From: Thuidium tamariscinum
Lineage: Eukaryota > Streptophyta > Bryopsida > Hypnales > Thuidiaceae
Assembly (NCBI GenBank): GCA_947034885.2
Contig: OX344758.2
Span: 13,295,067-13,359,066, forward strand
Length of the DNA stretch: 64,000 bases
Reading direction: 5' to 3'
Within the stretch, counting starts at the first letter, position 1. The number at the start of each line of letters is the position of its first letter. A program made the translations under genes and the position numbers. Under the pieces are notes generated by a model. It saw nothing but the letters and a program-made list of their open reading frames with translations. It did not search any database and was not told the DNA's origin. Shown here in pieces: positions 11,295-63,170 of this stretch.

Positions 11295-12216
11295 TTAACC
11301 CCTAAGGAACCAAGGCCATTTTTTACCCCAAAACCACTCCAAATTGTCATTTTTGTTGTGTTCATCCAAGAGAACAAAAAGAATATATTTTTAGAACCTA
11401 ATCGTAGGTTCTTGTACTATACTTATCTAAGACCATGTGGTAAAAAATTTATGAAGTTTGACTACATAGATTGGAAGATATTAGCTTTCAAAGTTGAAAA
11501 AAGAAGTTTTTTTGAACACTTGCAATTTTATATGACTTTGATTGCCACTTGTAGAAACTTTTTGCACTATAGACCTTGAACTAAAAAAAATTTGTGTTGA
11601 AGAATTGAGTTGAAAGACTCAAAATTCTTTTTTGAAGAATAAACACTTCATTTTCATTCCTTAAAAAACTAATGAGTAGAAGTAGGTTCAAGATTGAAAA
11701 AAACACTAAATTGTTAATATCTCCAAGATGGAATTGAAATTTAACAATCCCAAAAGTGAGATTGTTCTAGCAAACAAACTTAACCTTTTCAAATTATTAT
11801 TTTTTTAAATTGTAAAAATTGCATTTTGAAATGAGTCTTATACATTATTTTTCAAGAAGATGCTCAAATTGCCTAGAAAATAAGAATGTTCATAATTCTT
11901 ACATCACTAATCTAAATTGAATGAAGAAAAGATTCACATATAGATAAAAATAAGGTTTATAAGGAAAAAATTTGACATTTTAATTTCAAATTTTTGTGGA
12001 TTTTTTTTCTGCCCCATGACATGAAAATTATGTTTAAGATGGCATAACTTTTTCTACCATGCACTAATTGAAATATAAATTATATTCCCACAAAGTTAAT
12101 AAGATTTTCTATCTTACAAAAAAGTTTCAAAGAAATTCATTAAAAATTGAGGTCATAGGGACTTGCCGGAACTCTTCAAAGTCCTTCAAAGGGACTCTTG
12201 GTCCTTTAGAAGTTAA
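11295..12216 (+). mobile_element. piggyBac-like non-autonomous element, copy A
   Basis: Starts TTAACCCCTAAGGAACCAAG and ends with GGTCCTTTAGAAGTTAA, the most diverged ends of the full-length copies. Length is 922 bp including both TTAA sites. The interior aligns by eye with the copies at 39363, 42491 and 45422: the ACCACTCCAAA block, the GACTTTGATTGCCA block, and TTTCAATTGG-type motifs near the far end. It has no transposase, so it is a MITE-type derivative. It lies between the convergent genes at 10791 and 14403. Confidence 0.75.
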
Positions 12217-19479: not shown

Positions 19480-19665
19480 AATCAAATCTTCCAATCTATA
19501 TTGTCAAACTTCATGAAAATTTCATTACGTGATTTCAAACAAGTCAAGTATAAGATTCTATAGTTAGATTTTTTTTAAAGCGTTTTTTTCCTCATATGAA
19601 CGCAACAAAAATTACAATTTTGAGTTGTTTTAAAACCAAAAAATGGCCTCGTCCTTTAGAAGTTA
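19480..19665 (-). mobile_element. piggyBac-like element, terminal fragment (copy G)
   Basis: Matches the left-terminal part of the ~0.92-kb family in reverse. It has CTTCATGAAAATTTCATTACG and AGATTCTATAGTTAGATT, then TTTTGAGTTGTTTTAAAACC, and ends GGCCTCGTCCTTTAGAAGTT. The rest of the element is absent or too decayed to see. Confidence 0.55.
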
Positions 19666-34678: not shown

Positions 34679-35246
34679 CTTAAAGGATTGTTGTCTTCTT
34701 GAGGGACAAAATGAATTTTGGATAGGTTCCTATGACTACAATTTTTGGTGAAACTTTTTGAAAGTTTCTTGTAAGAAAGAAAAATTGATTTACAATGTAG
34801 AAATGTAGTTTTTATTTCAATTGGTGCCTAAAAACAAAAGTTATAACACAAAAAGTCCAAAATTGAACCTGGTAGGCAACAAATTTTATTTTGCAAAAAG
34901 ACAAAATTAAAATTAAAATTTTTTTCTCCTAAAAGCATATATTTTTGTTTACACTTGAAGCTTTGATTCATTCTACATGGACTAGTAATGAGAAAGTTAC
35001 AAAAAATATTTTTTTCAAGGAGTTTTAGCATTTTCTTAAAAAAATAACTTTGATTGCTCATATCTATCAATCTACACAATCAAACTTCATGAAATTTTTA
35101 CCGCATGATCTCAAACAAGTTAAATACAAAATTTTGTTGTTAGATTCTAAAGAAATGTTTTTTTTAATTTTCATGGATGAATGCAATAGAAATAGCAATT
35201 TTGAGTGATTTTGATGGAAAAATGTCTTCAATTCTTTGAGGGTTAA
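34679..35246 (-). mobile_element. piggyBac-like element, internally deleted copy F
   Basis: Begins TTAAAGGATTGTTGTC, decayed from TTAACCCCTAAAGGA, with GAGGGAC and AATTTTGG-TAGG matching the right end of the family. It continues with TTTATTTCAATTGGTGCC and AAAAGTTAT. It ends TTTTGAGTGATTTTGATGG and CTTTGAGGGTTAA. At about 570 bp it has lost the middle of the 0.92-kb element. Orientation is the same as the copy at 42491. Confidence 0.6.
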
Positions 35247-38946: not shown

Positions 38947-38948
38947 TA

Positions 38949-39221
38949 AGGTAGGTACACCCAAAAGCGCCAGTTTTTCATACTGTGCCTAGTTCTTGTT
39001 ATTATGTTGTTTAGATTTTTTTACAGTCTTGTTGGTGAATGAAAGCATGTTCCAACGCACCAAAGAACAGTGGATTTGGATACCATATGCAAAAGTTATT
39101 AACAGTCAAAGTGTGTTTCTGAAAGTGCCATCTACAATCTGGGTACATGACTGTTTTCGAAAATGTATGCATGTTGTACAGGGCGCTTTAAGGTCAGGTG
39201 CCATTTTGGGTGTACCTACCT
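38949..39221 (+). mobile_element. 273-bp TA-target MITE, copy 1
   Basis: Starts AGGTAGGTACACCCAAAAGC and ends with its inverse TTTTGGGTGTACCTACCT, flanked by TA on both sides. The interior AAAGCATGTTCCAACGCACC, AAAGAACAG and CAAAAGTTATTAA is shared with copies 43453 and 46562. TA duplication points to a Tc1/mariner (Stowaway-like) origin. Non-coding. Confidence 0.85.
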
Positions 39222-39362
39222 TAGTACATTGCAGAAACCAAAATGTACCCCTGTGTCATGATCATTTTTACAACAACACCCACTTTTAGAGCATAGTACC
39301 TTAGTTCATTTTTGGCCACCATTTTAACATGGACAAAAAAAATCACAATGGACCCATCCAAC

Positions 39363-40876
39363 TTAACCCCTAAAGGATTGAGGCATTTTTTGGCTTGAAA
39401 ACCACTCAAAACTGCCATGTTTGCTACTTCCTCCCAAAAAAACAAAAAAAATAATTTTATTAGAATCTAGGGGAGGAGGCTCATAAACCACTCATCTAAG
39501 GGCTGGTCCGCCTTTTCCATGTATTTGTTTGGATGGTAATATTTTCACTCATTTTTCAGTGAAAGAGAAATAAACGAGGAATCTAACACAAGTTGTTTCA
39601 TATTTTTTGAAGCATTATTGAATTAGTTATGAATTTTTAAACACACTCTGGCAGAGGGCCCTATCTGTGATCAGTAGGCCTTGCAAACCCATACATGCAC
39701 AGTTTGAAAAAAAATCTGGCTTGCTTCGAAAACTAGCACTGCAACATGTAAAAAGTAATAGCACTTGTTTCTAAAAGCATTCCTTTCTAAAATTGAAATG
39801 AATACTTGAATAAATCATTATTTCAGATTTTTGAACACTTGAAAGAAGGTACTTCAACAACTAATTCTTATTTTAAATATAATCAGGAGACACCTAACCA
39901 CTTAGTTGAGAATGAAGCCATTGGGACTTTGAAACCATCCATTCAATTAGCAAAAACCAAATCTTAGTATGCTTCAATGTAATCCACAATTCATTTTCTC
40001 ACAGTAAATGATCCATTTCAGAGCCTCCTAATGGAGAGGTGCAAAAGCCTCAGCGATTTATGAGCCCTCTCCTATAACCATAGGATCTTGTAAATTACTT
40101 GTCTGAGATTATGTGGTAAAAATTTCATGAAGTTTGACCATATTGATTGGAAGATATGAGCATTCAAAGTTGGAAAAATTTTTTTTTTTGAACTTTGACT
40201 TGCAATTTCAAATGACTTTGATTGCCATTTGTTGAATTTTTTTGCACTATGGACCATAAAGTTAAAATTTTTATGTTGAACATTTGAGTTGAGAATTAGG
40301 GAAAAACATTTCAAAAAAAAACTACTTGATTTTCATTCATTAAAAAATTGTTAAGTAGAAGTAGGTCCAAGATTGAACAAAACACTAAGTTGTTAATAAC
40401 TTTAAGATGTAATTGGAAAACCATGATCTCAACGGTGAGCTTGTTCTTGCAAACATCCTAAACCCTATCAAAAAAGAAAAATTGAAAAATTTGAAAAATT
40501 GCATTCAAAAATGAATTCTATAAGCTATTTTTTGAAAAAGGTGCTTAGATTGCCTGAAACACAAGATTGTCCGTAACTTTTTCATTATTAGTCCAAATAA
40601 AATGAACCAAAGCTTCAGATGTAGAACAAAACATAATCTTTGAGAAGAAAAAAATTGTTTTTTTTTTTTCTTCCCAGTGAACTGCTTTTTGGACTTAGAA
40701 TGGCATAACTTTTGCTTACAAGCACCAATTGAAATAAAAATTATATTTTTGGAAAGATAATTTGATTTCCTATCTTCAAAAAAAGTTTCAAAAAATCATA
40801 GCAAAAATTCAGGTCACACAAGCCTACCCAAAATTTCAAGTGTCCCTCAAGGGGACTTTAGTCCTTTAGGGGTTAA
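39363..40876 (+). mobile_element. piggyBac-like element, copy B, split by a nested element
   Basis: Starts TTAACCCCTAAAGGATTGAG and ends AGTCCTTTAGGGGTTAA. Span is 1514 bp, of which 607 bp (39468-40074) is a later insertion, leaving 907 bp of family sequence. Near the right end, GTCCC-TCAAG-GGGAC is a subterminal palindrome seen also in the copies at 42491 and 45422. It is closely similar by eye to the inverted copy at 42491. Confidence 0.85.
39468..40074. mobile_element. 607-bp TIR element nested in piggyBac-like copy B
   Basis: Left TAGGGGAGGAGGCTCATAAA and right, read inward, TAGGAGAGGGCTCATAAA are inverted repeats. Joining the flanks gives GAATCTAACCATAGGATCTT, which matches the uninterrupted sequence in the copies at 45422 and, inverted, at 42491. 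The insertion is therefore real. The target looks like TA. No coding capacity or named superfamily. Confidence 0.75.
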
Positions 40877-41259
40877 TTTAGGGCCTCTGATTACAAATAT
40901 GAATTCAAAGCTTACAAATTTTATCAGGCATGGATTTTTTTTTTTTAATTTAGGGTTTTCCCAAGCAGCGGAGTGAGGGGCTGTCGGTTCACCCTTGCCA
41001 CATTAATGTTCAATTGTCCAAATCAAGCATTTTGGGGTTGTGCTCTCATCTTTCAGCGAGATGACTTTGCAATTAGCTCTATTGGATGGTTCTCCCCACC
41101 TTTGGTGCTCTCTCCGGTGTCTGTTTCTCTGTTCCCCACGCCTTTTGGCTGCTCCTCTCTCTGCCCTCGGGCATGTAATTCCGCCCTCGCGTTTTCTCAG
41201 TAAAATCCACCCTCCACGGGTTTTCTCAAAAAATTAGCTCTATGGATCCTGTTGCTTTA
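40877..41259. other. Intergenic DNA between two elements
   Basis: GC-richer, with short frames on the plus strand (40973-41237) that resemble no known protein. Confidence 0.45.
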
Positions 41260-41810
41260 GACCATCCCCATCCCTGCGCAAGATAAGAGTCAACCTAGCT
41301 ATGAAGCTGGGTTGGGCAACAAAGAGTTCCCCACGGCATGCAAAACTCAATGTGGATAAGACCAACCACGACCAATTTTCCTGGAGAGACAACGAAATGG
41401 AAAGTGGAGGGCCGAGCATGGTATGTGGTGTAGCTCTCTTCCCAAAGTACATTCGTCAGCTTTTGTAGCAGCGCATTCAAATAGGTCAAAGCAAATTCAC
41501 AAAGAAGACAGGAGAGAGGGCTCCAAGCACACACACCCACATCAAAACCTGTCAAAATTGCATTCAAACCACCATGACATGGCCAAGGCTTTTTTGGGGA
41601 GAACATATTGTTCCCCTTCCCATCCATTTCTCTGAGTTTGAGTTTGGGGTGGGGCAGCCTGACTCCAGACACCTTCTCCCACATCAAAATGCAACCTTCC
41701 TGAGCCTCTTCCTGATCCATGCGGTGGGGCAGCCTGACTCCAGACACCTTCTCCCACATCAAAATGCAACCTTCCTGAGCCTCTTCCTGATCCATGCGGT
41801 GGGGATGCTC
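41260..41810. mobile_element. PIF/Harbinger-like MITE with a long open frame
   Basis: 551 bp flanked by TTA on both sides (41257-41259, 41811-41813). Ends GACCATCCCCATCCCTGCG and, inverted, GAGCATCCCCACCGCATG give a TTA plus GAGCATC-type terminus typical of plant PIF/Harbinger MITEs. The minus strand is open for 166 codons (41795-41295), almost the whole element. It includes two copies of a 25-residue repeat containing MDQEEAQEGCILMW. The frame shows no transposase motif and is probably incidental. Confidence 0.7.
41648..41797. repeat. Exact 75-bp tandem duplication inside the MITE
   Basis: Units 41648-41722 and 41723-41797 read identically by eye (GGTGGGGCAGCCTGACTCCA and so on). A third partial start is at 41798. 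Being 75 bp, it keeps the minus-strand frame open. Identity implies a recent event. Confidence 0.9.
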
Positions 41811-42490
41811 TTATGAATCATTGAAAAATCAAGGATGGGATCTAGAATATAAATTAATGAACTTGAGAATGACTGACATGGACAAGCCAATACAACTAAG
41901 TTAAGTGAGAGGGAATCAAAGAGAAGACTTTCAACACGGGGACCGTATTTTCATTTAATCTTTGGTGAAGGACCAACCTAAACTGTCTCACGTGGATTCC
42001 AATGACACTGGAGTGCCTTGGTTCCATTGCTAAGGCTAAATAATGCCCTGTGTAGGTTGAGTAGTTAATAGATTTCCAAGCCAATCTCTGCACAGTCAGG
42101 TTGCATTTGCTCAGCTTAGAGCCACTAACTTATCTACTCAAAAGACTTAGGCAACCCATTTCAATTAACCATGCCTCCCCTTGTAAAAACAAATGAAAAA
42201 AACAAACAATTTTAGAGATGTATTCAAAGACAAATGTAAATACAAGTATGAATAAAAATACAGATGTTGAATACATACATGGAGTACATATATGTACTTT
42301 CCATTTTTTTTTTAACAATGTTTGGATGCTAGAAAACCAAGAGAGTCTTAGGTTGAGGAATTTTTTGAAAACACTGTCACTATCACAGCAATCCATTTCA
42401 ATTCCCCCCTTTCCAAAATAATGAAAAAAACCAACGAGCAGGCACTCCCATTGCTATACCCTGCTCACCAAAAAGAATAACACTATGGCC
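41811..42490. other. Intergenic DNA, nothing recognised
   Basis: No gene or element boundary seen. Confidence 0.5.
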
Positions 42491-43406
42491 TTAACCCCTA
42501 AAGGACTAAAGTCCCCTCGGGGGACACTTGGAATTTTGGGCAGGCTTGTGTGACTTGAATTCTTTTTTAAATTTTTTAAATTTTTTTTTGAAGATAGGAA
42601 ATCAGATTAGCTTTCCAAAAATATAATTTTTATTTCAATTGGTGCTTGTAAGCAAAAGTTATGCCATTCTATGTCCAAAACGCAGTTCGCTAGGCAGAAA
42701 AAAAAAACCACAAATTTTTTTTTCTTTTTTCTTGAAGATTTTATTTTGTTCTACATCAGAAGCTTTGGTTCATTTTGTTTGGACTAATAATGAGAAAGTT
42801 ACAAACAATCTTGAATTTCGGGCAATCTAAGCACCTTCTTCAGAAAATAACTTACAGAATTCATTTTTGAATGCAATTTTTCAAATTTTTCAAATTTTCT
42901 TTTTTGACAGGGTTTAGGATGTTTGCAAGAACAAGCTCACTGTTGAGATCATGGTTTTTCAATTACATCTTAAAGTTATTAACAACTTAGTGTTTTGTTC
43001 AATCTTGGACCTACTTTTACCTAACAATTTTTTAATGAATGAAAATCAAGTAGTAGTTTTTTGAAATTTTTTTCCCTAATTCTCAACTCAAATGTTCAAC
43101 ATAATAAATTTTAACTTCATGGTCCATAGTGCAAAAAAATCAACAAATGGCAATCAAAGTCATTTGAAATTGCAAGTCAGAGTTCAAAAAAACTTTTTTT
43201 TCCAACTTTGAATGCTAATAGTTTCCAATCGGTACTGTCAAACTACATGAAATTTTTACCATATGATCTCAGACAAGTAATTTACAAGATCTTACGGTTA
43301 GATTCTAATAAAATTGTTTTTTTTTGTTTTTTTGGGAGGAAGTAGCAAACATGGCAGTTTTGAGTGGTTTTCAAGCTAGAAAATGCCTCAGTCCTTTAGG
43401 GGTTAA
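42491..43406 (-). mobile_element. piggyBac-like element, copy C (inverted)
   Basis: Starts TTAACCCCTAAAGGACTAAA and ends CAGTCCTTTAGGGGTTAA. It is 916 bp, opposite in orientation to the copies at 39363 and 45422. Just inside the first end is GTCCCCTCGGGGGAC, a perfect palindrome with a 3-nt centre. The interior matches copy B block by block and shows the empty site of the 607-bp nested element. No open frame long enough for a transposase. Confidence 0.88.
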
Positions 43407-43452
43407 ATAAGACAACCCAATGTTGTCAATTACCCAATTCTAACATCTACTG

Positions 43453-43725
43453 AGGTAGGTACACCCAAAAGCAACCTATTCCTAAAAGCGCCATCTACAG
43501 TGCACATACATTTCCGAAATCAATCATGTTCATAGACTGTAGATGGCACTTTCAGAAATAGACTTTCTCTGTTAATAACTTTTGCATACGGTATCCAAAT
43601 CTTGCGTTCTTTGGTGTGTTGGAACATGCTTTCACTTGCCAACAAGACTACATAAAAATTTGAACTAATTAATAGCAAGAACTAGGCTCAGTATGAATAA
43701 GTGGCGCTTTTGGGTGCACCTACCT
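43453..43725 (-). mobile_element. 273-bp TA-target MITE, copy 2 (inverted)
   Basis: AGGTAGGTACACCCAAAAGC at the left and GCGCTTTTGGGTGCACCTAC at the right. The interior reads as the reverse of copies 1 and 3 (GGTGTGTTGGAACATGCTTT). The right TA is present and the left flank is slightly changed. Length equals the other two copies. Confidence 0.85.
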
Positions 43726-44580
43726 TAAACCCTCCCATTTGTATCATTTACCCATTCATTACTACAACCTTAGCATCCTTTTTGCATTAAGGCAATGCAC
43801 TTGTGAGGGGACACATTGCTGTGTGGATAGCATGGGTCTATCTACAATTTAGTCTCAACTAACTTTAAAAAATCATAGAAAAATCATTTCTTGTCAAAAT
43901 GTTATAATTCTAGTAGAAAGAAATAGCAAATGATGGTAGGGCCCATCATTGATGGTAGGATTTTACGTCTTCTTTCCCAAACTTGGAGATGTTTATTTCA
44001 ATATCTGTATCATAAAACAATGTATTGCACACAATGTGTTTTGCTTTGTTATGTGGTACTGTGACACACAAAGCTAGCCTTTTCAATGGAAAAATTTGTC
44101 CATTTGTTTAAAACTGCAAAACAAAGCTAGCCTTTTTTTTTTCTTACCAACTTGATTAAGTGTGTTTACCTATAAGTCAATAATGTTCAATTTTATTGAT
44201 CCTGAATGGGCTTTGCCCATTATTCTGCTCAGGGGCTGAAAACTGGGCTCCTTCATGCCTAACCCACACCCTGTGTATCTTTCAAAAGTGCATCATTTAA
44301 ATTTATTTATTTATTTATCTACTTTTATTTTTATTTTTAATTTTACAAAAGTGCATCATTCATTTCTTGCAGACCGCTCACATACAAATGACTACCCCAG
44401 TTTCTCATTACACAATGTGACACACAATGTGACAATGCAATGTGACGAAAAGAGGCAGTCACTGCTGTTTGATTAATTTTCCTACCCCCTCATCAGAAAA
44501 ATCAACAGCCGTTGAATTTAAATTTAAAAAAATCTCGCCCCCCTCCAAGAAAAATAAAAAACCGTTGGATATCGGATACA
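43726..44580. other. Intergenic DNA, nothing recognised
   Basis: Contains ATTTATTTATTTATTTAT near 44300 and repeated CACAATGTGACA near 44411-44440. Confidence 0.5.
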
Positions 44581-44780
44581 AATACGAATATTGAATACAA
44601 ATATAAAATATAAATATTGAATATGAATATAGAATATGAATATAAAATATGAATATAGAATATGAATATAAAATATGAATATAGAATATGAATATAAAAT
44701 ATGAATATAGAATATGAATATAAAATATGAATATAGAATATGAATATAAAATACTAATATTGATTCTGAATATATATACC
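44581..44780. repeat. ATATGAATATARAAT minisatellite
   Basis: A 12-bp motif (GAATATAGAATAT / GAATATAAAATAT alternating, effectively a 24-bp unit) repeats for about 200 bp. The 107-codon minus-strand frame across it is a by-product of the repeat. Confidence 0.9.
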
Positions 44781-45421
44781 AATACTTAAAATTGATGCAA
44801 ATACGAACACTGAATATGGATATGATATATAAATTATCATATCATTTATGCCATATCCTTTGTCTCCAAGCCCACTTTCTGAGAATTATAAGAGGGGGTG
44901 GGGGGAGGGGATTTACAAGTTTAAAAAATTAAAAAATTAAAAAATAATATTAGATTGGGAGGAAAGGGGAGGGAAGGGGGTTTTAAAATATTTAATATTT
45001 AAAATTTAATGTTTAAATCAGATTGGGAGGGGGGACGTGCAAATTTTTTAAATCTTTATAGTTTTTGAGCTCATTGTGACAGAGTTGAGCTCAACTGTCT
45101 GTCAATGGGTGAAATTCCCGGTCTCATTTGTTTCAGAAACAAAAACAAATGTCAATTGGACGGAACCACCATCGAGTGCTGGGAAGGAAGGAAGGAAGGA
45201 GTGTGTTGATTAGAGAATCCAGATTGTACACAGTATAGGAGAGGGGTCAGGATTTTGTTAGGCAATTAAATGCCCAATTTCCTAAAAAAAAATGGGCAGC
45301 TTCAAGCCCATAAAAAAAATGAGGATAAATGTGTTAAAAAAATGCTAGACTGTAATTATGGCCCTCTACACTGTTGCCAAAATGTTTCTAACTAAAGCCT
45401 CATTTCATCTGTTATACAAAG
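44781..45421. other. G-rich and (GGAA)n intergenic DNA
   Basis: Purine-rich, G-run-rich stretch at about 44890-45040 and (GGAA)n at about 45181-45200. No gene. Confidence 0.6.
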
Positions 45422-46352
45422 TTAACCCCTAAAGGATCAAGGCCTTTTTTCTGTCTAAAACCTCTCAAAACTGCCATTTCTATTGCATTCGTCCAAGAAA
45501 ACAAAATATATTTTTTTTTTAATAATCTAACCGTAGGATCTTGTATTTAACTTGATTGAGATCAAGTGGTAAAAATTTCATGAAGTTTGACCGTACAGAT
45601 TGGAAGATATGAGCATTCAAAGTTGGAAATACAAGTTTTTTTGAACTGTGGTTTGCAATTTCAGATGACTTTGACTGGAATTTGTATTAAAAAATTGCAC
45701 TATAGACTTTGAATTTATAATTTTTTGTGTTAAGAAATTGAGTTGAGAGTCTAGGAAAAAAATTTCACACAAAAAACACTTGATTTTCATTCTTTAAGAA
45801 ATTGTTAAATAGATGTAGGTCCAAGATTGAAAGAAAAAATAAATGGTTAATAACTCTAAGATGGGATTGAAATACAATAATCCCAATGGTGAGATTGTTC
45901 TAGAAAGTAAACATAACCTTGTCCAACAATGTTTTTTGAAAAATTGTGAAAATTGCATTCAAAAATGAATCCTATAAGTTATTTTTTCAAGAAATTGTCT
46001 AGATTGCCCGAAAAACAAGATTGTCCATAACTTTCTCATTATAAGTCCAAATAGAGTGAATCAAAGCTTCACATGTAGGCAAAAATATATTATTTTAGAA
46101 AAAAAATTAAAAAATTAAATTTTGACTTTTTGCAAAAAAAAAATTCTGCCCGCCGAATGAAAATTTGGGCTTTTTGTGGTATAACTTTTGCTCCCGGTCA
46201 CCAATTGAAATAAAAATTACATTCCCATGAAGCTAATCAGTTTTCCTATCTTATGAGAAAGTTTCAAAAAGATTCATTAAAAATTGAGATCTACAGAACC
46301 TGCCCGAACTCCAAATTGTCCCCCGAGGGGACAATGGTCCTTTAGGGGTTAA
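45422..46352 (+). mobile_element. piggyBac-like element, copy D
   Basis: Starts TTAACCCCTAAAGGATCAAG and ends GGTCCTTTAGGGGTTAA, 931 bp. Carries GTCCCCCGAGGGGAC near the right end, the subterminal palindrome. Intact at the site where copy B carries its nested insertion. Non-coding. Confidence 0.88.
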
Positions 46353-46561
46353 TAAATACAAAAATTGCATACAAAACTTACATACTGAGAATTGGCCTCT
46401 TTCAATTAACCCTGGACTGTCACCAATGCCATTTTATGGCGTTTGGATGACAATCCGGGGTCATAAGAAGAGGTAAACAATAGTTTTTTCATCCACTTTT
46501 TTTTAAATGACCTTTCATGTTGAGTTACGAAGAGAATATAATTGAGTTTTTAGTCTAACTA

Positions 46562-46834
46562 AGGTGGGTACACCTAAAAGCGCCACTTATTCTTACTGTC
46601 CCTAGTTCCTGTTATTATGCTATTCAGATTTTCATGCAGTCTTGTTGGCGAGTGAAAGCATGTTCCAACGCACCAAAGAACAGAGGATTTGGATATCATA
46701 TGCAAAAGTTATTAATGGTCAAAGTCAGTTTCTGAAAGTGCCATCTACAGTCTGGGTACATGACTGATTTTGAAAATGTATGCACATTGTAGATGGCGCT
46801 TTAAGGTCAGGTGCCATTTTAGGTGTACCTACCT
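46562..46834 (+). mobile_element. 273-bp TA-target MITE, copy 3
   Basis: AGGTGGGTACACCTAAAAGC on the left and TTTTAGGTGTACCTACCT on the right, with TA on both sides. Same orientation and interior order as copy 1. Confidence 0.85.
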
Positions 46835-49659
46835 TAATGTTTGTTTTCATGTAGTTGAAAGGTAATTAGAGAAAATAGATGGCAAAATTTGCCATTTAAG
46901 TGTACTTTGAGAAATTGAGTAAATCTGGAATTTCTCCTTGGAAACAACATTTTTTGAATTTGAGGCCAACTAATGAAATGGAGGTCCTATATTCTAGTTT
47001 GTTCTCTAATTTGAATTTTGGAAAAATTCGTAAAATTGAATATTTTATTGCAGTTTAAACTTTGGCTGTATTTTTAATGTCCACTGCATTCTAATCATAG
47101 ATGTATGTGGCAAATCAATTTACACCATGATGTTTTTCACTGTAATGTTCACACATAGTGAAATTTTCAGATTATTTTCAATTTGATATGATTTTTTCTT
47201 CAATTTTTCTTCAAAAAAATTCAAAAAATACAACTTTCCTCAAAAAAATCTGAAATTTTAGTGAAGTACAGAGGACATGTAGTTTCATCTTTGGAAAATA
47301 AAATTAAAAATTTTCATACATATCTGGTTACAAAATAGCAACAAAGTGAGTGACGGACAGTAAGCCCTAAAACCAATGGTTATAGGCCTGGTGTTTTAGG
47401 GTTAAAGCTTGAATTTAAGATTTTGCATAGTGAAGTAGTCTTGATTCATTAGAAAGAAAGAAGTCCCTTCCCTTGAGGTATCAAAATGTCATGTTAAAAT
47501 GTTTAAGTTGTACAAATAATCTATTGTCCTTTAAACTACAATATTCCATTGCTTTGGCCATTTCCACTACCATCAAAAAAAGAATAATTATATTAGTTGG
47601 TTTTTTTGTATCATCAATTAATATTCATCTTAATAAAAAACAATTTAAAAAAAAGCTTGATTAGATTTTAATTCTACAAATACAAAACACGTAGATTCAA
47701 CTTTCAAATAGTACACAAGAAAATTCAAAATGAAGATTGAAAAGGATATTTCATTATTAAATAATAAAATCAGTATTTATGAAATTTGAAAACTCATGTA
47801 TTGAATTTTGTAAAAATATATGTAGAAAGAATACACTTGATCAAGGTGCTAAGTTTTAAAATTTGGAAAAAGATATTTCCAAAATTTCCAATTTTAGACA
47901 TGCTTAAAGATCCTAAATAATTCAGATAATTAGAGTTGAGGATGTGGTCATATATGTTCTATATATATAGTGTATCTCCACACATAATGTCGTACTATAA
48001 CCACATGTCTTCTGTATGTATTATCTATATAAATTTTTTTTGGTCTGGTATTGGTTTAGAAGGTAGGCTGGATGAATAAGATGTTTCCTAGTATTTTTGC
48101 CAACGTTTATTTTATTTTATTAATATTGAATCAATGGCATTGGGAAGAGGGGATTTTTTTTCTACTCAAATTATTAGACAATTAAGTTTTTTTTTCAATT
48201 GGAGAGAGGCAAAGGTAGTACTTGCCTACTACTTTTTAGTGGATAGATTAGGTAAGGCTTCAATTCTTGACACTTCAAATTCCTAACATCTTGAGAATGC
48301 AATAGAGAATTGAAGTTTATCAAATAATTCCTAATTATTATGAATAAATCTTCATAATATCATGCAAATAAATGCTCAATCTCTAAGAGGTTTTTAAACA
48401 TCTATCTCAAAAATCTAAGTGTGCTTTCAAATTCCCTATTTTTTAAACAAACTTGAGTATTTGAAGTTAAGAATTCTATTAAAATGAGGCAAATTTAAAA
48501 GCTTCATTCAACCTACATTTTGATATCAATTTAAACAAAAAAACTTTCAATCTTAATAATACTTTCAAGAACTTCTTAACAACCCTACATTCATTTTCAA
48601 TAGATATTTGCTTCCTTCTTATCTTTACTTGAAAGAATGTTTTAAGATACTAGAAGCTTAGTGCCAAAGACCACCTTTTAGTAGTCTTTGCACTTCAAAT
48701 GAGCATTTAAAGTTCTTTAATACTCTTTGATCATTTCATGCTTCAATTTTTTAAGGATCTATCAACCAATAGGCATCTTCAAATTTTCGACAATAATATC
48801 ATAAGGATTGCTAATATATGAGCTTAAGATCTTCAACCTAGGCACCTATGTTATAGGCACCTTTCATAGTTATGGGATACCTATGTTATAAGCTCATGTG
48901 TTATAGGCACCTTCTATGATTATAGGATACCTACTTATATTTAGAGTAAAGGCTCATAGGCACATTTCTAGGCTTATGTGCACACTAGTGTTGCTAGGAA
49001 CTTTTGAATGTGTATTATTCATTTTTTCATGTTTTTAATTTGTGAGCTATTTTTTATTTTAATAAAATATCTTATCTCTTGGTCCTTAAATGTAATTCTT
49101 CAAAGCAATGAGAATTCATGATTTCAAATTGAAAACTTGTATATAGATATAGATATAGAAGATATGATCTAAATAGACAATGTCTTGTTCTTTTATTATT
49201 AGCTTGAGTAAAAATATGTTTTGGTTTAAAAAAATAATTATTCAAATAACAAAAATCTCCATATGAATTCTTAAAAATTGATCACAAAAACGTGAGGCCC
49301 AAAGTAGGTTCCTAAGTACTTTAAAATGTTAATTTTATCAAAATAGTATACTTATTATAGGCAAATGAATGTCTATGAAGCTTCTATTTCTATAACAAAA
49401 TTACTTCAAATTAAACTTAGTATATTGATGTCTAGAATAGTAATGATACCATTCAATTTGTTATAAAACAAATAGCCTTTTCACTTACTCTCTACTTTTT
49501 AAGCTTAGATGATAAATAGAGTAGAAACTGCACTTCATCCGATTAATATTCCATTTAATTACAATATTCTTTGGTTTCTTTCTATCAATCATCAAACTTT
49601 GCATACGTCATCTTGCAAAAGTAGGGATTGTCACAACACTTCCAAAGCCCTTTACATTC
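46835..49659. other. AT-rich intergenic DNA with an element fragment near 48830-48990
   Basis: No gene recognised. At about 48830-48990 GGCACCT-ATGTTATAG and TCTATGATTATAGGATACCT recur. They resemble the long terminal repeat region of the inverted-repeat element at 58125-59067, so this may be a solo end of that family. Confidence 0.4.
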
Positions 49660-62301: not shown

Positions 62302-63170
62302 TTAACCCCTAAAGGATTAGCCTACCAAATTTGGCAACAAAGCACTTTGGGGTAGGTATGTGTGAGTGGATATTTCTATATATTAAGCCCAAAATTTAAT
62401 AGAAGGTGGGGACAAGGAATATCTTCAATGTGTACAAAAAATTTGGAAATTTGGAAATACGAGTCAAAAGATATGATCTAATATGTTCCTTTTTTGAAAC
62501 TAAGCAATTAGGGCAGATTGAAAAAAAATCACTTTTTTCCAAAACAAAAACTTGAAATTAGTTTTCTTCATGCATAGAAAGCATAAAAAGTAAGCATAAA
62601 AAGCTTTGAATCTTTCCATTTTGATCAATGAGTCAAAAGTTATGATGGTTTTTTGTTTGCAGGTAGTTATAGATTTTCGACTCTAAAATAAACTTTGACA
62701 TCTTTTATTTTACTCAATTTTCAATATTTTTTGAAAAAAAAATGAAAGTATAGGATGTAGATTGTTTATTACAACATTCCAACTATTGGGATTGGCATTT
62801 TTCAATTCCACAATTAAATTCTTAACAATTTTGTATTTTGAATCATTTGCTAATTCTTTTTACTTACTATTTTCTTCCTACATGTTGTACAATTCTAAAC
62901 AATTTGAATTTCTTCAGGCAAGTACCCTACTTGGCCTCAACAATGAATCCAAAGAGGTACAATCATTTGGACATATGATTGTCACCATTTGAAGTGCAAC
63001 TACCTTGTTTTCCGCACAATGAAAAAAATGATTTTTGAGCATTCAAATGCTAATGTTTTGCAATCTATACAGTGAAAAACTTTGAAATTTTTTACACATG
63101 TTTTCAAACCAATTTACTACAAGACCCTACAACAACAAATTTCAAAAAATATTTTTGAAAAGTGTAGAAT
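62302..63170 (-). mobile_element. piggyBac-like element, diverged one-ended copy E
   Basis: Starts TTAACCCCTAAAGGATTAGC, with GGGGTAGGTATGTGTGAG near it as in the right end of copy C. It continues with GAGTCAAAAGTTATGATGG and GAGCATTCAAATGCTAATG blocks in the C order. The opposite end with its TTAA is not found, so it is truncated or decayed. Confidence 0.5.

Follow-up and report, generated by a model that had tools for sequence, protein, structure and literature searches.

A stretch of 64,000 nucleotides from the Thuidium tamariscinum assembly (contig OX344758.2, positions 13,295,067 to 13,359,066; the whole stretch is called the window below) contains several copies of an element with inverted ends that sits at TTAA. 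This raises the question of what these elements are, which enzyme moves them, and why families that differ widely in sequence should have nearly the same length. We consider it likely that they are non-autonomous piggyBac elements of ~930 bp, that is, miniature inverted-repeat transposable elements (MITEs), which are cut and pasted into TTAA by resident piggyBac transposases, and whose internal spacing is kept for an end assembly that uses multiple sites.

The elements in the window

When up to three mismatches are allowed, the 17-base end of the element occurs nine times in the window, as against 0.48 expected, and nine was reached in none of 100 shuffles. An earlier note, made from the letters of this DNA, had placed copies with inverted ends at four positions. 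The ends have zero or one mismatch at 42491-43406 and 45422-46352, and two each at 11295-12216; the copy at 39363-40876 is split by an insertion. The fragments that the note gave at 19480, 34679 and 62302 are real as well, as judged by profile matches. In total, four copies in the window are complete or almost so and three more are fragments, all of a single element type; they are listed here with the groups (A and E) to which they belong:

11295 to 12216, forward strand: complete MITE of the A group with degenerate ends, 922 bp (profile match 1-930, E 1.7e-196)
19484 to 19665, reverse strand: left-end fragment only, A group (profile 2-188, E 1.9e-29)
34681 to 35246, reverse strand: A-group copy with an internal deletion (profile 1-202 joined to 554-923)
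39363 to 40876, forward strand: A-group copy with ends like those of subfamily B4, split by a nested insertion at ~39470-40073 (profile 1-138 and 105-931)
42491 to 43406, reverse strand: complete MITE of the A group, subfamily B4, both ends exact, 916 bp (E 5.5e-259)
45422 to 46352, forward strand: complete MITE of the A group, subfamily A5, 931 bp, inserted in another repeat that yields empty sites (end search and profile match)
62302 to 63156, reverse strand: E-group copy of a deeply diverged subgroup, without its left end (profile 85-933; E 1.2e-187 with the E profile, 3.1e-30 with the A profile)

From the edges read in the sequence, the copy at 39363-40876 is an element of ~930 bp interrupted by a second insertion of ~600 bp. 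The ends of this nested insertion, the limits of which are approximate, have GGCTCATAAA in common in inverted orientation.

That all copies are non-coding, as the note had it, appears to hold: the longest stop-to-stop frame among the nine family consensuses has 108 codons, and no copy appears coding. A coding body as such was rejected, since there is no long frame and gaps are mostly of one or two bases rather than threes.

Families and copy numbers in the genome

The high genome-wide copy number suspected earlier is borne out by 5,803 exact matches (2,972 plus 2,831) to the 17-base end in the 363-Mb genome, as compared to none with a reversed-pattern control. Full-length DNA queries with two subfamilies returned 6,596 and 9,220 first-look candidates, which possibly overlap, with 40 scored per subfamily. 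Identity to the A5 consensus is 98-99% in the 40 best A5 copies, so that amplification has been recent.

The family alignment kept 28 of 39 candidate end pairs; ten of the eleven dropped pairs lay outside 840-960 bp, one was an 849-bp piece of a nested element, and the window copy at 11295 is outside the 39. Without a length filter, 19 plus-to-minus spans below 3 kb occurred in the first 100 genome places listed; 17 of them measured 915-934 bp, the others 704 and 1171. The 28 complete copies form nine families in two groups, between which identity is 49-56%, with consensus lengths of 931, 930, 929 and 931 in the A group and 932, 933, 941, 932 and 934 in the E group. In most consensuses, CCCCTAAAGGAC directly follows TTAA at both ends, which gives them terminal inverted repeats of the CCC/CCY type. 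The elements are short, non-coding and numerous and have their ends in common with a transposase-bearing element, as is characteristic of MITEs.

Transposase genes and their relation to the MITEs

A search of the genome with the PF13843 (DDE_Tnp_1_7) profile gave 659 first-look candidates; all 116 that were scored lie above the curated cut-off (one match at E 2e-79), and none of 14 control genomes had a match. A frame of 1023 codons is present in eleven of the rows. Thirty loci were fetched, among which the transposase families are ~27-71% identical to each other. In ten of them (L021-L030), which belong to the eleven with the 1023-codon frame, the protein is identical over 991 fetched codons; these have 3' ends reading TTAACCCTGAAACGCCGGGC and form a separate family, apparently very recent, whose identical proteins may be taken as a sign of recent activity. 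The 774-codon open frame of another locus, L018, aligns with the solved piggyBac transposase 6x67 (E 9e-33), and its residues D429, D518 and D636 align with the catalytic D268, D346 and D447 of that protein, i.e., with the triad of aspartates (DDD; residue numbering after PMC7351741). In three transposases, a Cys/His-rich tail is visible by eye, a candidate for the cysteine-rich C-terminal domain of the superfamily.

Three complete transposase-bearing elements were read, T18 (5.1 kb), T31 (5.9 kb) and T33 (7.1 kb), all of which have TTAACCCCTAA at start and end and the transposase gene between. The transposase of T18 is 55% identical to that of T33 and 52% identical to that of T31, the frame of which has one in-frame stop. 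The MITE profile matches both ends of T18 (310 and 214 columns, E 1e-55 and 1e-26) and of T33 (527 and 227 columns, E 5e-22 and 3e-30) as well as the 3' end of T31 (178 columns, E 2e-14), such that MITE-like terminal sequence extends over ~180-530 bp in these elements. A MITE-like end was further found in five of eight additional 3' flanks of related transposases (L070, L073, L074, L076, L077), of which L070 is a near-copy of T18 and thus non-independent, and L073 comes from a fetched stretch that ends three bases before the element does. The piggyBac assignment of the earlier note is thereby supported by DDD transposase genes lying inside elements with MITE-like ends, and the autonomous partner that it called for appears, by sequence, to exist.

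The MITE matches the transposase-bearing elements on both sides, their 3' end with its first part (as far as ~530 bp) and their 5' end with the final ~220 bp. It therefore looks like an internal-deletion derivative of such an element, with a stretch at ~530-710 that is matched by neither end. We infer that a resident transposase mobilises the MITEs.

The target site

When the flanks of the copy at 45422-46352 are joined at one TTAA, the joined sequence has alignments that span the junction at 33 further places in the genome. Eighteen of these were fetched, and all eighteen have exactly four bases at the position of the TTAA. These four bases are CCAA in 14, TCAA in three and CTAA in one, and TTAA in none, which speaks against a TTAA target if taken by itself. 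The simplest reading is that the copy of the host repeat at 45422 first became TTAA and then was hit. A second case is L052, where an E-type MITE lies within a fold-back element whose uninterrupted arm has GTTAAATG at the same point, so that a single TTAA empty site is seen in this nested insertion. For the three remaining window copies, joined flanks matched only themselves, with no alignment across the junction. Together, the paralogous sites of 45422 and the uninterrupted arm in L052 fit a duplicated four-base TTAA target. As to the single TTAA foreseen by the note for empty sites, the four bases present once stood in all cases and the TTAA itself in L052, while the letters at the eighteen paralogous sites did not agree.

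L052 and L041 (704 bp), both on contig C1, are fold-back variants in which both ends are E-group 5'-type ends.

Length and internal spacing

Seven conserved blocks (a to g) lie at ~108, 177, 383, 456, 604, 638 and 760-761 in both the A and the E group. In single copies that carry indels, block positions are off by up to ~22 bases, and the search missed block c or placed it elsewhere in six of 20 A-group copies, and block d in four. In a comparison of A5 with the E-group family E1a by ungapped 62-base windows, 12 of 15 windows lie at shift 0 or +1, and the register is kept even in stretches where identity is near the shuffled level of 40%.

The spacing extends to the transposase-bearing elements. 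Block a stands at 108 in all eight that have a matching 3' end (at most three of 13 bases different; in L073 after adding its three missing bases), and block b stands at 177 in T18, L070, L073 and L077, having not been found in the other four. At the other end, block g lies 171-172 bp in from the terminus in most MITEs, and 171 bp (T18) and 172 bp (T33) from the 5' end of transposase elements; it was not found in T31. Block d is displaced inwards by 9-11 bp in four transposase elements, among them two near-copies. It thus would seem that end spacing has been kept while the transposases within one land-plant genome diverged to ~50% identity.

The same distances recur genome-wide. Among the first 100 listed places in each case, the span from the end to block a is 120 ±1 bp in 86 (105-135 allowed), and that from block g to the end is 172 ±1 bp in 91 (157-187 allowed). 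Between blocks d and e, the spacer has two peaks in the first 100 listed matches, with 28 places at 155 bp, 35 at 165-166 bp and the other 37 across 140-169, and the difference between the peaks is near one helical turn. A copy of the E1c family (at L050, 941 bp) fits the longer spacer class. An internal repeat unit was rejected as a candidate, since the best direct match (positions 604 and 759, score -6.3) and the best inverted match (-8.1) hardly exceed the highest scores from 20 column-shuffled nulls (-7.3 and -8.7).

Families keep this register better than they keep their letters, as can be seen by counting indels. In the joint alignment, 17 copies compared to their own consensus differ by 722 substitutions and 47 gaps, or 15.4:1. 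Substitutions to gaps between families are 170:0, 198:1, 239:3, 273:4, 217:1, 198:3, 205:4 and 191:1, and for the remaining pairs 240:9 (the lowest ratio), 408:7, 410:4 and 411:5, so that the ratios run from about 27 to over 170 substitutions per indel. For the pair without any gap, 11 would be expected at 15.4:1 (P 2e-5). Ungapped windows, which are independent of gap placement, give 36 register shifts per 722 substitutions for the copies (one per 20) and 15 per 1,691 for eight within-group family pairs (one per 113), a 5.6-fold deficit, though these pairs are non-independent. With strict pairwise scoring (1,-1,-5), the copies are at 15.3:1 and within-group pairs at 18:1 to 191:1. That six family lengths lie within 4 bp has P ~5e-4 in a neutral star model at 15.4:1. 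C-to-T hypermutation as the source of indel-free substitutions was rejected, because transversions are the larger class in all seven family pairs considered. The comparison shows that the MITE families keep length and internal spacing better than letters, with an effect size that depends on the method; by alignment-free measures the indel deficit appears moderate.

A proposed mechanism and its alternatives

A resident piggyBac transposase would excise the MITEs and reinsert them at TTAA sites. To do so, the transposase, perhaps with a host factor, would bind several sites at fixed distances and bring the two ends into a paired complex. Copies in which the distances between sites are disturbed would be poor substrates, and mainly correctly spaced copies would seed new ones, such that indels would be purged while substitutions persist. 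Spacing may thus be selected for transposition, possibly by way of a long assembly of transposase or host factor. One candidate site is a palindrome of 19 bp at bp 15-33 of the 5'-type end in the A5 consensus, and T18 has GTCCCCTCGGGGGAC at the same place. This palindrome is strong in the A-group consensuses (8, 6, 7 and 7 of 9 pairs) and weak in those of the E group (6, 5, 5, 5 and 6 of 9 pairs, at differing places). A right-end palindrome was rejected as a general rule, being good in the A group and T18 but not in the E group, where other sites would therefore have to serve.

It is tempting to go further and see the element of ~930 bp as a ruler, in which transposition requires sites at fixed distances along the entire element, selection acts on spacing more than on letters, and allowed lengths may step by about one helical turn. 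The stepwise lengths are suggested by the spacer peaks at 155 and 165-166 bp, the 941-bp family and the shift of block d. We regard this extension as rather doubtful as a whole.

Several results weigh against selection on spacing and against the link to the transposases read here. Adding the single-copy family E2 to the window counts brings the families to one shift per 84 substitutions. With cheap gaps (5,-4,-10), copies are at 9.0:1 and family pairs at 2:1 to 9:1, so that the deficit vanishes, and a separate cheap-gap run placed 18-154 gaps in each family pair. Under strict pairwise scoring, the cross-group pairs are at 16:1 to 18:1, i.e., without a deficit when compared to copies. Pairwise length equality alone is weak (P 0.02-0.09), and six of the nine consensuses were built from one or two copies only. 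There is no helical period in conservation (396 of 500 permutations were equally strong), so that a face-of-helix model can draw only on the two peaks of the spacer and on block d standing at +10. With respect to the transposases, three of the eight further flanks (L071, L072, L075) have no matching end in the fetched stretch, though L072 has a weak internal match, and MITE consensuses are ~63-82% identical to the ends of transposase elements in the longer aligned stretches, so that the elements read are relatives rather than the immediate source of the youngest MITEs.

Some of these results would be expected if length and register were unselected, and a few masters, the sampling of intact ends and the choice of alignment together produced the effect. 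Exact-end searches do prefer intact copies, and this possibility further draws on the scoring schemes that abolish the deficit and on the weakness of single length tests. However, the groups are so far apart in sequence that their masters were not recent relatives, the shift deficit persists in ungapped windows, the spacing peaks are narrow at both ends despite an allowed range of 30 bp, and block a keeps its place in transposase elements also. We therefore regard it as unlikely that the register is unselected.

The register could alternatively be held by a function of the MITE body as a structured RNA or a source of small RNAs. Two copies, folded on both strands, gave z values of -4.0, -1.2, -2.2 and -2.6 relative to 20 shuffles each, an excess of which pairing of the inverted ends would explain part. 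Yet Rfam gave no match at the gathering threshold across the window, and for the copy at 45422-46352 none up to E 1; moreover, loops of an RNA can normally absorb indels, and the spacing of blocks a and g also occurs at the ends of transposase elements. An RNA function as the keeper of the register thus seems improbable to us.

We give similarly little credence to the idea that the spaced subterminal sites are bound by the transposase but are inhibitory, with over-active copies being lost. The precedent for this, which also bears on our own proposal, is piggyBat, whose subterminal sequences inhibit rather than help and to which its low activity is ascribed (PMC11707139). In the present genome, high-scoring copies of two numerous subfamilies retain full length and all sites, which would be easier to understand if the sites help. 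That another TTAA-targeting superfamily, e.g., Sola3, moves the MITEs and the piggyBac transposases are bystanders is very improbable and largely refuted for the families examined, for although TTAA sites are not unique to piggyBac, the piggyBac-bearing elements have the tip and the long subterminal stretches in common with the MITEs, and the three complete elements carry PF13843 genes, with no search aimed at Sola proteins having been made.

Selection on spacing for transposition by resident piggyBac transposases, which remains our preferred explanation, has some wider bearing. piggyBac is a main tool of genome engineering, and the extent of its ends that matters is still under study; thousands of plant copies amount to a natural experiment from which the important sites and distances can be mapped. 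Moreover, although most descriptions of the superfamily come from animals, it can reach high abundance and diversity in a land plant and have amplified there recently, and selection of non-coding mobile DNA for distance rather than for sequence becomes testable.

Host and neighbouring features

The plant host assumed in the earlier note is confirmed by a PsbW-like frame in the window, which matches chains named photosystem II reaction centre W (E 7e-23), and by a PsaD exon from the same genome. The top PDB chains for this exon are 7ksq, 8htu and 6l35 (185-188 bits), followed by 9lut (180) and 8wgh (170), with the remaining single-copy chains listed at 166.5 bits or less; 9vfj heads the list merely as the sum of three repeats of ~115 bits each. 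The chains 7ksq, 8htu and 6l35 are those of Physcomitrium patens, a moss, so the host is a land plant and probably a moss itself. A further frame in the window is presumably CPSF30-like, going by its sequence.

Another repeat, of ~280 bp, is present in three copies (38947-39229, 43445-43711 and 46560-46836) that are 82-90% identical, have inverted approximate AAGGTAGGTRCACCCAAAA as ends, and each lie close to a piggyBac MITE. At ~41650-41800, a unit of ~75 bp (tggggcagcctgactccag...) is in direct tandem duplication, as read by eye.

Comparison with known systems

The moss elements resemble piggyBac of Trichoplusia ni in their TTAA target, CCC tips and PF13843 DDD transposase. piggyBac has a palindromic 19-bp internal repeat, of which bp 17-33 are bound by a dimer of the C-terminal domain, and the A5 palindrome lies close to this position (PMC7351741). 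The piggyBac ends LE35 and RE63 are enough for certain activities (PMC7351741); in the moss, by contrast, blocks at fixed distances extend to depths of at least 108-177 bp at one end and 171 bp at the other, as well as throughout the MITE. A likeness in the placing of sites is offered by piggyBat, which has several transposase binding sites up to ~bp 120 of one end (PMC11707139), the moss sites being predicted ones. piggyBat is a bat element, and the excerpt of that paper mentions no length-locked MITE body.

The coral CMITEs (PMC2872659) are likewise linked to piggyBac, inserted at TTAA, homogeneous in size and conserved in their interior between families, and their authors suggest that the interior matters for transposition. 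They are ~100 bp long with tips less conserved than the interior, whereas the moss MITEs are ~930 bp long with nearly constant tips and spacing kept better than letters. Moreover, the ends of the moss MITEs can be traced to transposase elements, while most of the CMITE interior had no known source (PMC2872659).

With respect to plants, piggyBac has appeared in repeat tables, with 1,230 entries (122 kb) for C-fern (PMC6890710) and one entry of 75 bp for Stipa (PMC8319324). One study counts it among the superfamilies present in all groups studied (PMC4438587), and a review of land-plant transposable elements, in the text available, lists six terminal-inverted-repeat superfamilies and uses the word piggyBac zero times (PMC9033089). 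Among the matches listed for piggyBac in moss, bryophyte, fern, land plants and Physcomitrella, there was no paper on moss piggyBac elements; a Niphotrichum paper was rejected as such a report because the word there is 'piggybacking'. The superfamily itself, animal piggyBac MITEs with a conserved interior and piggyBac rows in plant repeat tables are thus already known. In contrast to these table rows, the present genome offers open reading frames as well as complete elements and ends numbering in the thousands, and what is new, among the literature matches listed, is a large, recently amplified, moss-like piggyBac radiation with MITE bodies in which spacing is kept over letters.

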